Positions 33,213 through 37,784 of a stretch of DNA of 64,000 nucleotides are shown piece by piece. The translations under genes were made by a program, and so were the position numbers. Each line of letters begins with the position of its first letter. Positions within the stretch are counted from its first letter, which is position 1. The notes under the pieces are model-generated. The model saw only the letters and a list, made by a program, of their open reading frames with translations, did no database searches and had not been told where the DNA came from. Source of the DNA: Cyclobacteriaceae bacterium (GTDB lineage Bacteria > Bacteroidota > Bacteroidia > Cytophagales > Cyclobacteriaceae); assembly GCA_016787725.1 (NCBI GenBank), contig JAEUTZ010000016.1, positions 124,001 to 188,000 of the forward strand. Direction: 5' to 3'.

Positions 33213-34439
33213 TCAGGCCGACAAGCGTTCCACAGCGGCCGGCTGGCTGGCTGGAGTCAGATTGATTTGTGGTGCCAGGATAACGCTTACCTCATCCCAT
33301 TCTGCCCATTCTTTCAGTTTTTGTAGTTGAACACTGCCCTGCAGGTATTGATATCCTTTCCCTTGGTAGCCACCTTTGAAGGTTTCAAAATCACGATGCG
33401 ATATCAAGGTGCCTTCCGGGAAGCTGATCAGCACATCCACCGTTGCCTCATTGCAAAATGGAAGCCCATCGTCCTGCGTAAACTTTTTGTATTCATACCG
33501 GTAATCGAAGGTGAGGGCTGAAATGTCGGAGAGTACCGCAGACCCGGTTGGGTAACTTCCGGCACCTTTTCCAATGAAAACCTGTTTTTCCGCAAATGCG
33601 CCTTCCACCAGCACCGCATTGTACTCATTTCGCACCGCAGCCAGGATGTGATCGGAAGGGATGTATTGAGGGGCTACAAATCCAACAATGCTGCCATTGA
33701 TTTTGTATGCTCGCGCTACCAGTTTAATGGTGAGGTTGTTTTCACGGGCATATTTCAAATCAACCGCTGAAATATTTTGGATACCAACATGGATGATGTT
33801 CTCAGGCCGGATGAAAACACCAAAGGTATGGGCGATGGCGATGGTTAACTTAAACTTAGGATCGAATCCTTTTACGTCCAGAGAAGGATCACTCTCGGCA
33901 AATCCCAGATCCTGGGCTGCCTTTAGGGCTTCGAGGTAACTTTTCTTTTCCTCAAATACTTTCGTGAGAATGTAATTGGTGGACCCGTTGAAAATTCCTT
34001 CAATACTCGTGATCAGATCGTTGTCATAATATTCTTCCAGGTTCCGGAGGATCGGAATGCTTCCACAAACAGCGCCTTCGTACAGAATAGAGCGGTTGTA
34101 GGTTTGTTGCAACTGGTAAATCTCCTGCAGATTTTCGGCTAACATTTTTTTATTGGCCGTAACCACATGTTTTCCATTTTCGATGGCCTTTTTTACAATG
34201 GTGAAGGCGGCCTCGGCATCATCAATTAATTCCACCACCACATCAATTTCCGGGTCGTTGAGGATGTCGGCAGCTTCGTAGGTAAAATAAGAAGCTTCGA
34301 TGACGCGTGCCTTGTTTTTATTCTTGACACAGATCTTTTTGATTTCCGCTTTAACACCATGTGTTTCGGTAAGTACATGGTACAACCCCTGACCAACACA
34401 TCCAAAGCCAAACAGACCTAACTTCAATTTCTTCTTCAT
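33213..34439 (-). CDS. hom: Homoserine dehydrogenase
   Basis: This is a 408-residue enzyme reducing aspartate semialdehyde to homoserine. The Rossmann motif GLFGFGCVGQGL lies at 8-19; VVTANKKMLAEN, EGAVCGSIPILRNL, GIFNGSTNYILTK and FAESDPSLDVKGFDPKFKL follow. It is monofunctional, with no aspartokinase part, and the C-terminal ~80 residues lack a clear ACT domain. It overlaps metX by 4 bp (ATGA) and is the last gene of the SAM-riboswitch-led unit osmC-metY-metX-hom, which commits homoserine to methionine. The isolated placement suggests methionine-specific use. Confidence 0.95.
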   Translation of the reverse strand: MKKKLKLGLFGFGCVGQGLYHVLTETHGVKAEIKKICVKNKNKARVIEASYFTYEAADILNDPEIDVVVELIDDAEAAFTIVKKAIENGKHVVTANKKMLAENLQEIYQLQQTYNRSILYEGAVCGSIPILRNLEEYYDNDLITSIEGIFNGSTNYILTKVFEEKKSYLEALKAAQDLGFAESDPSLDVKGFDPKFKLTIAIAHTFGVFIRPENIIHVGIQNISAVDLKYARENNLTIKLVARAYKINGSIVGFVAPQYIPSDHILAAVRNEYNAVLVEGAFAEKQVFIGKGAGSYPTGSAVLSDISALTFDYRYEYKKFTQDDGLPFCNEATVDVLISFPEGTLISHRDFETFKGGYQGKGYQYLQGSVQLQKLKEWAEWDEVSVILAPQINLTPASQPAAVERLSA

Positions 34440-35482
34440 ACGAAGGTACTTTTCTTGATTTCTGTTTTAAAAAATTTTCTGACGCTTTCTTTAAACTGGT
34501 CAAACTCCACCAGAAACCCGTCATGACCATGCAGCGAGGTAAGGATGTCCAGTCTTGCGTTGGGAATGTGATTCACTAAAAACTCCTGTTCGCGTACCGG
34601 GAACAGCAAGTCGCTGTCAATACCAATCACCCAGGTTTTCGCCTGGATTAGTTTAAGAGCGGCTTCTGCACTTTTCCGCCCCCGGCCTACCTGGTGGCTG
34701 TCCATCACTTTTGTGAGAATCCAATACGAAAACGCATTGAAGCGGTTAGCCAGCTTTTGGCCTTGATAACGTTGATAGGAAGCGGCCCGAAAGTCATCCG
34801 TTTTGTCGGTTGTTTTTTCACTTTGGGTCTGCAAAAAGGTATCGTAAGTTCTGAATGAGATCATGCCGATAGCACGGGCTGCTTTCATCCCGTCTACACC
34901 GGCCCGCACATCATTTTCTTTCCAGGTAGCATCGGCCGCAATGGCCATCCGTTGAGCTTCATTAAAAGCAATGCCCCAGGGCGAGTGAAAGGCATTAGTG
35001 GCGATGGGGATGATTCGTTCAATAATGCCAGGTTGAAGTAGGGCCCATTCCAAAACCTGTTGCCCGCCTAATGAACCTCCCAGCAAGGTGTGAATTGCAG
35101 AAATGCCCAAATGTTGCCTCAGCAAATCAAAGCTTCGAACAATGTCGCGATTGGTTAATTCCGGAAAGGAATGAAAGAAGGGGGAACCGGTGGTTGGGTT
35201 GATCGATAACGGCCCGGTGGATCCATAACATCCGCCCAGTGTATTGGCACAAATAATGAAATAGTTCCGTGGATCAAATGGACTGCCTTCGGTGAAGAGA
35301 TCCTTCCACCAATCTGTAAAGTCCGAACTTCCGGTAAGCGCATGACAAATCCAGATCACATTGTTACGCTCTTTGTTGAGCTGCCCCAAGGTGGTGTATT
35401 TAAGTTGGAAGCCCGGGAGAATCCCCCCGGTTTCCAACTCGAACTCACTGGCAAAGTGAAATAACTGATCCGTTTTTAACAC
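34436..35482 (-). CDS. metX: Homoserine O-acetyltransferase
   Basis: This is a 348-residue alpha/beta-hydrolase that activates homoserine with acetyl-CoA (possibly succinyl-CoA; specificity is not readable here). The nucleophile elbow is GGSLGG (Ser137). NVIWICHALTGSSDFTDWW and CANTLGGCYGSTGPLS form the active-site entrance. VIGIDSDLLFPVREQ gives the Asp and LHGHDGFLVEF the His. Length is typical. It lies between metY (47 bp) and hom (4-bp overlap). Acetylhomoserine would be used by the MetY encoded upstream. Confidence 0.95.
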   Translation of the reverse strand: MLKTDQLFHFASEFELETGGILPGFQLKYTTLGQLNKERNNVIWICHALTGSSDFTDWWKDLFTEGSPFDPRNYFIICANTLGGCYGSTGPLSINPTTGSPFFHSFPELTNRDIVRSFDLLRQHLGISAIHTLLGGSLGGQQVLEWALLQPGIIERIIPIATNAFHSPWGIAFNEAQRMAIAADATWKENDVRAGVDGMKAARAIGMISFRTYDTFLQTQSEKTTDKTDDFRAASYQRYQGQKLANRFNAFSYWILTKVMDSHQVGRGRKSAEAALKLIQAKTWVIGIDSDLLFPVREQEFLVNHIPNARLDILTSLHGHDGFLVEFDQFKESVRKFFKTEIKKSTFV

Positions 35483-35529: not shown

Positions 35530-36873
<1,344 letters not shown>

Positions 36874-36882
36874 TTAAATAGT

Positions 36883-37320
36883 TTAGTTCAGAGAAAAGTT
36901 GACGGGCGTTACATTGCGCAGGTTGTCATTGACCGGGCACCGGCTTTCAATCTCCTCCAGCCAACGGGTTTTTAAAGACTCGTCAATCCGATTGGTGGTC
37001 TTGAGCGATACGGTGAGATACTGGTAGCCAGCCCGTTCCTCATGCGAAGTGCCAAACAACCGTGCCGGATTTAAGTCGCCTTCGATATTGATTTGCAAAT
37101 CCTGCACATCAATATTGAGTTCTTTGGCAGTAAGGTGAGCCACCACATTAATACAGCCGGCATACCCAGCGAGAATGTACTCTACGGGGTTTGGTGCCAG
37201 GTTGGTGCCACCCAGCTCTGCAGGTTCATCCACAATTAATTTGAATCCCCGCGTTTCAATTTCAGTGCGAGCAGGCGTTTCACTTTTAGACTGTATCGAG
37301 AATTTAAGTAAGTTAGACAT
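36883..37320 (-). CDS. OsmC-family protein, first gene of the methionine unit
   Basis: This is a 145-residue OsmC-fold protein starting MSNLLKFSIQSKSETPAR; an upstream frame exists but the shorter start is the family-like one. Key parts are LIVDEPAELGGTNLAPNPVEYILAGYAGCINVVAHLTAKEL (the conserved active-site Cys is in GYAGCINV) and a C-terminal IESRCPVNDNL with the second Cys. OsmC/Ohr proteins reduce organic peroxides with paired cysteines. This subgroup, repeatedly found with methionine genes, may instead handle a sulfur compound; that is inference. It is the first gene after the riboswitch leader. Confidence 0.88.
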   Translation of the reverse strand: MSNLLKFSIQSKSETPARTEIETRGFKLIVDEPAELGGTNLAPNPVEYILAGYAGCINVVAHLTAKELNIDVQDLQINIEGDLNPARLFGTSHEERAGYQYLTVSLKTTNRIDESLKTRWLEEIESRCPVNDNLRNVTPVNFSLN

Positions 37321-37385
37321 GATATATTTTGTTTTTGTTGGTTGAAAAATGGTGTAACGAAGAATGGACATAACCGTAACCAAAA

Positions 37386-37403
37386 CTGCCTGTCACCTGG
37401 CAG
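37386..37403 (-). terminator. Weak hairpin with T-run before the OsmC-family gene
   Basis: On the minus strand CTGCC, an 8-base loop, GGCAG is followed immediately by TTTTGG, 66 nt before the OsmC-family start. It is weak as a constitutive terminator, which would suit an attenuator whose use depends on upstream pairing. Confidence 0.4.
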
Positions 37404-37417
37404 GGCCATAGGTTAGT

Positions 37418-37455
37418 TTGTTGCCGGAAGCGCTACGCTAGCCTGATGACAACAA
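37418..37455 (-). promoter_or_regulatory. Candidate attenuator stem following the Cys-rich leader ORF
   Basis: On the minus strand TTGTTGTC (37455-37448), directly after the leader stop codon, pairs with GGCAACAA (37425-37418) over 8 bp with one G-U. The CAACAA strand can also pair with the Cys codons TGTTGTTGTTGG (37470-37459) just upstream. These competing pairings are what a translation-coupled attenuator needs. Pairing is seen in the sequence; regulatory use is inference. Confidence 0.4.
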
Positions 37456-37590
37456 TTACCAACAACAACACATACAACCCGGTAGAGCAGGGCTGCAAAT
37501 GAGATTGAAATGATTTTGATTTTGGAAGAGTCGGCTGACCTTGACCTTAAGGTCTGATCGCTTTGTGCGGATGGAAAGTTGTGTTTTCAT
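37456..37590 (-). CDS. 44-residue Cys-rich leader peptide ORF
   Basis: ATG at 37590 opens a 44-codon frame that begins MKTQLSIRTKRSDLKVKV. It is basic in its first half and ends G-C-M-C-C-C-W (38-44) before TAA. The cysteine codons are TGT ATG TGT TGT TGT. It lies 12 nt downstream of the riboswitch 3' side and 135 nt before the OsmC-family gene. It has no signal peptide or known domain. A cluster of Cys and Met codons at the end of a tiny ORF in front of sulfur-amino-acid genes is the classic form of an attenuator leader. Polycysteine leader ORFs that sense cysteine are known in mycobacteria; whether this one is translated is untested. Confidence 0.55.
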   Translation of the reverse strand: MKTQLSIRTKRSDLKVKVSRLFQNQNHFNLICSPALPGCMCCCW

Positions 37591-37601
37591 TTTACTTTAC
37601 C

Positions 37602-37720
37602 GGTTTATAGTTCTCCTCGGCACCTTGCCGGAAGCAGGATTTAGCACCGTTTTCCTCGTATTATGAAGCTGGTTGCTAGCGTTTCAAAGAGCCTGTACTC
37701 TCCACGCTTCTTTATAAATC
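37602..37720 (-). promoter_or_regulatory. SAM-I (S-box) type riboswitch
   Basis: On the minus strand the closing stem pairs TTTATA (near 37717) with TATAAA (near 37604). Inside are AGAAGCGTGGAGAG, then GAAACGCTAGCAACCAG (the conserved A-G-C-A-A-C-C of the SAM-I core), and later GGTGCTAAATCCTGC, the conserved G-G-T-G-C-T-A-A-A-T-C-C segment, followed by a GGCAAGGTGCC hairpin. These elements and their order match SAM-I aptamers. The genes downstream (OsmC family, metY, metX, hom) are the expected targets. Boundaries are approximate. No strong terminator follows directly, so the expression platform may lie further down. Confidence 0.88.
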
Positions 37721-37752: not shown

Positions 37753-37784
37753 CAAACGTATACCGGTTTAGTAGAGTTTCCAAA
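37753..37784 (-). promoter_or_regulatory. Promoter of the SAM riboswitch / methionine unit
   Basis: On the minus strand TTTG (37784-37781), exactly 20 bp, then TACGTTTG (37760-37753). Both halves match the Bacteroidota consensus TTTG-N19/20-TAnnTTTG. Transcription would start near 37747, about 27 nt before the riboswitch. Confidence 0.8.

Follow-up and report, generated by a model that had tools for sequence, protein, structure and literature searches.

A leader ORF with a cysteine/methionine codon tail follows the SAM-I aptamer at metY operons in a branch of the Bacteroidota

The window, by which we mean the whole 64,000-nucleotide stretch of Cyclobacteriaceae DNA that was analyzed, carries a SAM-I riboswitch aptamer, a short ORF, and a homocysteine/methionine operon on its minus strand. 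In the direction of reading, the features are as follows:

37781..37784, minus strand: TTTG box, read from the sequence, 20 nt 5′ of the TACGTTTG box
37753..37760, minus strand: TACGTTTG box, read from the sequence, fitting TAnnTTTG
37602..37720, minus strand: SAM-I riboswitch aptamer (RF00162, full model, 61.3 bits against a gathering score of 44.4)
37456..37590, minus strand: leader ORF of 44 codons with an ATG start and a Cys/Met tail (MKTQLSIRTKRSDLKVKVSRLFQNQNHFNLICSPALPGCMCCCW-stop)
37456..37479, minus strand: tail Gly-Cys-Met-Cys-Cys-Cys-Trp-stop, putatively regulatory given the Cys/Met codons in the tails of 97 leaders
36883..37320, minus strand: osmC-like gene, gene 1 of the operon (PF02566)
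35530..36852, minus strand: metY, O-acetylhomoserine sulfhydrylase (TIGR01326, 668 bits, over the cut-off)
34436..35482, minus strand: metX-like homoserine acetyltransferase (best NCBIfam match TIGR01392, below its cut-off)
33213..34439, minus strand: hom, homoserine dehydrogenase (PF00742, NF004976)

The covariance-model score places the aptamer in RF00162. The leader ATG lies 11 nt past the aptamer 3′ end, and family profile matches give the gene order 3′ of the leader as osmC-metY-metX-hom. A sequence-only reading of this DNA had described a 44-codon frame ending GCMCCCW between a SAM-I aptamer and osmC/metY/metX/hom, and both the coordinates and the family matches agree with it. We take the TTTG at 37781..37784 to be the upstream box of a Bacteroidota-type promoter, whose TACGTTTG box ends 32 nt 5′ of the aptamer. 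TAnnTTTG is given as the sigma-A consensus in Flavobacterium in the available part of PMC9723704. Across relatives, a TAnnTTTG motif stood no more than 70 nt 5′ of the aptamer at 52 of 109 loci, compared with 5 of 110 segments (mostly coding) taken 600–670 nt downstream.

We searched 58 relatives with RF00162, read all 110 regions among the matches listed (52 genomes, mostly of one genus in the GTDB sense), and grouped these SAM-I loci by downstream gene. A locus was counted as having a Cys-tail leader when an ATG ORF of 18–70 codons began 0–30 nt past the aptamer and held at least three Cys in its last 10 codons. Such a leader was found at 38 of the 41 loci that precede metY (30/33) or osmC-metY (8/8) and at none of the 42 that precede metH. 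The split held on both sides of the genus boundary: metY and osmC-metY loci had the leader in 31/33 cases within the window’s genus and in 7/8 cases in other genera of the order, and metH loci had it in 0/33 and 0/9, respectively. Thirty-two genomes combined a Cys leader at metY with a leaderless metH aptamer; the leaderless metH aptamers of the same genomes are, therefore, a clean internal control of natural origin. The close metY loci that fell short of the leader definition were L061, L090, and L110. One trait of ribosome-mediated attenuators, a conserved short ORF with pathway-related codons near its stop, was found at the same 38 of 41 loci. The tail codons and the frame, on which the sequence-only reading depended, are kept in relatives: the position of the ATG, the frame, and the Cys tail recur, and the peptide body varies.

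Among the other downstream genes, the leader was present before ATP-grasp (4/5), YceI (3/4), and SusC (1/2) genes and was not found before metB-like genes (0/8), other Cys/Met PLP genes (0/3), metX (0/2), CysH (0/1; the ORF there has two Cys), or unclassified genes (0/2). The names ATP-grasp, YceI, CysH, and SusC/RagA were read from translations. When leaders with at least two Cys in the last 10 codons were included, a SAM-I aptamer and a leader preceded ATP-grasp genes at L034, L052, L065, and L079; YceI genes at L031, L039, L041, and L044; CysH at L046; and SusC/RagA at L071 and L077. The pair of SAM-I aptamer and Cys leader appears to reach genes outside methionine synthesis too.

A MetY search of public genomes gave 80 named loci among the matches listed, a set that shares some organisms with the close relatives, so that the two sets of counts overlap. 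An aptamer HMM detected SAM-I at 74 of these 80 loci and, under a rule that the leader start no more than 50 nt from the end of the raw aptamer match, 54 of the 74 had a Cys-tail leader (both counts among the matches listed). The carriers include Chryseolinea, Chryseosolibacter, Parachryseolinea, Marivirga, Hymenobacter, Fulvivirga, Mucilaginibacter, and Pedobacter. Chryseolinea belongs to the Cytophagales by taxonomy look-up; Chryseosolibacter, Parachryseolinea, Marivirga, Hymenobacter, and Fulvivirga presumably do so as well, and Mucilaginibacter and Pedobacter we take to be Sphingobacteriales. The 20 loci that did not qualify include 14 of Algoriphagus/Belliella and 2 of Aquiflexum/Cognataquiflexum, and these 16 have an ATG ORF 8–12 nt past the aptamer with fewer than three Cys in its last 10 codons. 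At L258, L260, L277, L283, L285, and their kin (Algoriphagus, Belliella), the ATG ORF is kept and its Cys tail is reduced or missing. L263 and L296 were counted among the 20, yet they have Cys-tail ORFs farther downstream, beyond the counted distance; that of L296 lies 345 nt past the SAM-I aptamer. In L125, from another order of the same class, a Cys tail occurs in a TTG-open frame that opens ∼90 nt past the SAM-I aptamer.

A survey by phylum and family covered 120 SAM-I loci among the matches listed, and the six that passed were all from the window’s family; the survey is uneven, as it favors the best-scoring aptamers and many of its loci precede other genes. Six of the named metY loci gave no aptamer HMM hit; they had no SAM riboswitch at the Rfam gathering score either, and none of the five of them that were scanned passed the Cys-tail test. 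At one metY locus without a SAM riboswitch, L300, an upstream ORF has an internal CCMCCC run and is perhaps a Cys leader without an aptamer. In other groups, L163, L165, L174, L195, and L196 have long 5′ regions between SAM-I and metY, the metY frame opening ∼550–790 nt past the aptamer, and no Cys-tail ORF was found in them.

Codon use was analyzed in 97 distinct leaders with at least three Cys in the last 10 codons, out of a parent set of 111 distinct leaders with at least two Cys in the last 12. The 97 leaders are related by descent, and the statistics on tails, Met, and helix H1 that follow overstate their independence. The leaders are 23–55 codons long and start a median of 10 nt past the aptamer (quartiles 8–11). 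Their tails hold 342 TGT and 184 TGC codons, with both used in 82 of the 97 leaders. In 18 leader pairs, pN/pS was lower for the tail (0.35) than for the body (0.52); this is supporting evidence only, as the pairs were picked by in-frame similarity, which biases toward such a result. Among non-Cys residues, Met accounts for 16% in the tails vs. 1.7% in the bodies (odds ratio 11), and 74 of the 97 leaders have a Met within the last 12 codons. Tail ATGs number 102 in frame and 21 in the other two frames combined; because a TGY-rich tail constrains out-of-frame ATG, the body is a better control for Met. Trp is also enriched (odds ratio 9.7) but with only 9 residues, and Ala, Pro, Gly, and Arg are tail-enriched with fewer residues or more weakly than Met. 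Because Met is enriched in the tails alongside Cys, the better reading of the tail is as a putative sensor of Cys plus Met rather than of Cys alone; the sequence-only reading had offered both options. Another possible reason for the tail Met codons is that they provide an internal start before the Cys run. We also considered a branched-chain leader in a Leu/Val/Ile-rich ORF at 37433-37498. It needs a TTG start and was set aside; it is further disfavored by the interruption of the alternative frames, which contain stops within the ORF span in 94 of 97 leaders for the +1 frame and in 64 of 97 for the +2 frame.

In the window’s clade, three further RNA elements lie 3′ of the Cys codons: a strand able to pair with those codons (the anti-Cys strand) and two hairpins, a small one termed B and another termed C. 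Their positions in the window, together with those of the pairing partners, are as follows:

37459..37468, minus strand: 5′ strand of helix H1, on the Cys/Trp codons (TTGTTGTTGG), with 10 pairs to the anti-Cys strand, G-U allowed
37448..37455, minus strand: TTGTTGTC after the stop, a second candidate partner of the anti-Cys strand (minimum-energy fold of locus L002)
37429..37439, minus strand: hairpin B, AGCG-TAG-CGCT (sequence and fold)
37418..37427, minus strand: anti-Cys strand, the 3′ strand of H1 (CCGGCAACAA; pairing test)
37371..37415, minus strand: hairpin C, with a GUGAC loop at 37392-37396 (covariation in 36 sequences; model R1)

In this clade, H1 was 6 bp or longer at 34 of 36 loci and averaged 8.06 bp, vs. 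4.76 bp for segments of the ORF body. Its 5′ strand lies on the last codons and the stop; at L076, L095, L098, and L104, it lies at or just past the stop. A second attenuator trait, tail codons inside a predicted helix strand, was thus found in the window’s clade (34/36) and was weak overall: over all 97 leaders, pairing between the tail and downstream RNA had a mean z of −0.69, with 16 of the 97 below −2, although the pairing was above that of shuffles. We, therefore, rejected pairing between the polycysteine codons and an anti-Cys strand as a feature of all clades and retained it for the window’s clade only. Because the tail pairing is weak over all clades, the Cys/Met leader is broader than the RNA platform of H1 and hairpin C. 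Many loci have the hairpin B sequence AGCG-TAG-CGCT or variants of it, and GATC-type stems occur in others.

The hairpin C set comprised 36 of 39 hits to a loop pattern (GTG, A/G, C, A/G), with L031, L058, and L305 left out as unlike. In these 36 sequences, 89% of cells were paired, and both sides had changed in 8 of 14 pairs, with 50 such cells vs. 13.4 in shuffles; two pairs were poor (18/36 and 12/36 cells unpaired). The covariation score was far lower when the hairpin was slid. The loop was GUGAC in 35 of 36 sequences and GUGGC in 1, a constancy that is partly by construction given the pattern used to gather the set. Model R1 hit the window’s genome once (E up to 1). Within the genus, 41 of 63 genomes likewise had a single copy (34 of 47 among the nearly complete ones), and the other 22 gave no match. 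No known RNA family was found in 37230-37600 in Rfam up to E 10. Ten further genomes were picked by hairpin C alone, and a SAM-I aptamer, a Cys-tail leader, and metY were present in all 10. Their hairpin segment differed from every model member in eight and was identical to one in L318 and L324; L335 and L337 have the same segment as each other, and GUGAC occurs in all 10.

We then considered how a signal from the leader might reach the operon. No conserved intrinsic terminator was found: a fold test gave a terminator-like structure in 1 of 37 loci, and the single weak terminator match in the window lies inside hairpin C (0.6 expected). Masking of the operon gene start was likewise unsupported, with an accessibility of 0.61 vs. 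0.44 upstream; in this test, an in-frame ATG farther upstream served as the gene start at three or more loci (L002, L063, L095), shortening their gaps. The attenuator trait of an alternative terminator or start-masking hairpin was, therefore, not found as a conserved feature of the 37 loci. The distance from the leader stop to the gene start has a median of 127 nt. With no terminator, a gap of this length, and an accessible start, neither classical termination nor direct coupling fits. In the 60 nt before gene 1, the C and G fractions were 0.189 and 0.069 at 38 loci, compared with 0.214 and 0.165 before 37 other ORFs. Such a G-poor 5′ stretch would suit Rho loading and also ribosome entry, and our first guess is that Rho might terminate transcription there.

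Taken together, the comparison reveals a fixed ATG spacing, a conserved frame, a Cys/Met tail retained at the codon level, a link to metY and not metH, and, in the window’s clade, a predicted helix on the Cys codons and a conserved hairpin. On this basis, we consider it likely that the leader is a ribosome-mediated attenuator whose tail Cys/Met codons would report charged tRNA-Cys (and tRNA-Met), with SAM gating the leader start. SAM binding would close P1 and block ribosome entry at the leader AUG ∼10 nt behind it, since the ribosome footprint should clash with the closed helix at this distance. metH starts lie 38–55 nt past the aptamer in 31 of 38 readable cases, and no such clash is, therefore, expected there. 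At low SAM, the leader ORF would be translated; ribosomes stalled on its Cys/Met codons would hold H1 open, and operon expression would rise. Expression would be full only when SAM is scarce and Cys or Met is scarce too. The sequence-only reading had proposed that a second, translation-based Cys/Met input is stacked on the SAM riboswitch, and the conserved ATG, frame, and Cys tail support such an input, its regulatory effect being predicted. We are evenly divided on a more specific form of this idea, in which the leader ORF would itself be the expression platform of the riboswitch: translation of the ORF would be switched by the aptamer, and its effect would be set by the Cys/Met codons, forming a two-input gate to which the clade-specific GUGAC hairpin is an extra. 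If this is true, one RNA reads three points of sulfur metabolism (SAM, charged tRNA-Cys, and charged tRNA-Met).

Other readings share part of this evidence. The ORF could be a mere expression platform for SAM, acting on the operon by polarity, with the identity of the Cys/Met tail irrelevant. The tight spacing of the start past the aptamer is what such a platform calls for, and the 16 Algoriphagus-type loci keep an ORF 8–12 nt past the aptamer without a Cys tail. However, a Cys/Met tail written in mixed synonymous codons recurs in many genera, and we consider this reading unlikely. We give little credence to the idea that the ORF encodes a small functional Cys-rich protein that binds metal or thiols. 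The window peptide has no Pfam or NCBIfam match, the body differs between clades, the length ranges over 23–55 codons, and the ORF is tied to SAM-I and metY, not to metH. In its favor, the pN/pS of the body is 0.52, from pairs that were picked by similarity.

It is also highly improbable that the UGU repeats serve as RNA structure (H1) without being translated and that the frame is incidental. H1 can pair the UGU bases in 34 of 36 loci, but this holds in one clade, and the tail is present in clades with a weak H1. The mixture of TGC and TGT, Met codons that are mostly in frame, and the conservation of the ATG and open frame all argue for translation, as does the pN/pS on 8 ungapped pairs chosen in the same way (0.57 in frame, 0.78 and 0.94 out of frame). 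A chance ORF is refuted by conservation at a fixed place in relatives: 6 of the 482 ATG ORFs of 18–70 codons in the window, the leader included, have at least three Cys in the last 10 codons, but chance accounts neither for 38/41 metY-type vs. 0/42 metH loci nor for 10/10 further genomes picked by hairpin C alone. The ribosome-mediated attenuator, thus, remains the reading that we prefer.

Riboswitches and leader-peptide attenuators are usually described separately, and to our knowledge, RNA regulation in Bacteroidota has been little studied. Here, a SAM-I aptamer and a Cys/Met leader are joined repeatedly in one branch of this phylum, which suggests that two sulfur signals may be read at one control point before methionine synthesis. 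The locus also bears on the way SAM-I aptamers work in Bacteroidota when no terminator is visible. In classical attenuators (trp, his, ilv), the regulatory codons stand at the end of a short ORF and in one strand of a helix. The leader described here likewise has its end-of-ORF codons in a helix strand; unlike the classical cases, it has no conserved intrinsic terminator that we could find, and a metabolite aptamer precedes it. Mycobacterial polycysteine ORFs were reportedly termed leaderless, cysteine-responsive attenuators by Canestrari in 2020. The ORF in the window is not leaderless in this sense, as the 119-nt aptamer precedes it on the same strand (the transcript start is predicted). It further differs from the mycobacterial ORFs in that the SAM-I aptamer comes first, Met is present in the tail, and the operon is one of homocysteine/methionine synthesis.

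In the available part of PMC1262725, it was predicted in 2005 that polycysteine leaders precede the cys operons of Mycobacterium and Propionibacterium as well as cbs in Bifidobacterium; as here, the mycobacterial ORFs are short, precede sulfur genes, and have a run of Cys codons near the stop, and no conserved terminator hairpin is described. A conserved uORF before cysS of Rhodobacterales, uORFC-8-2, for which attenuation was proposed, also has its Cys codons inside a stem; in the available text (PMC8632094), it differs in having two tandem Cys codons and a U-run terminator and in being alphaproteobacterial, and no riboswitch is named. The leader of the window does not belong to this family, its operon being osmC-metY-metX-hom with no conserved terminator. 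In Xanthomonas, the met operon has a SAM-I riboswitch to which uncharged initiator tRNA binds as well, and this resembles our case in combining SAM-I with a tRNA signal at a met operon; there, however, the tRNA binds the RNA directly, and the part of PMC7270179 available names no regulatory-codon leader ORF. For Flavobacterium psychrophilum, the available text of PMC9723704 mentions attenuation by leader peptides upstream of amino-acid operons. The sequence-only reading knew of no earlier description in Bacteroidota of a SAM-I aptamer paired with a polycysteine leader, and in the accessible parts of the open-licence literature, we too found none of a Cys/Met leader behind a SAM riboswitch. The comparison supports an extension of that reading, from Cys to a probable Cys plus Met and from one ORF to a family of putative leaders.

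Cysteine auxotrophy as the cause of a Cys input was unsupported: in the window’s genome, a cysK/M match exceeds its cut-off and is adjoined by a cysE-like match that scores below the cysE cut-off. No Cys-tail ORFs were found around the cysK/M and cysE-like genes (L311, L313); the loci of two weaker relatives (L312, L314) have one Cys-tail ORF each.
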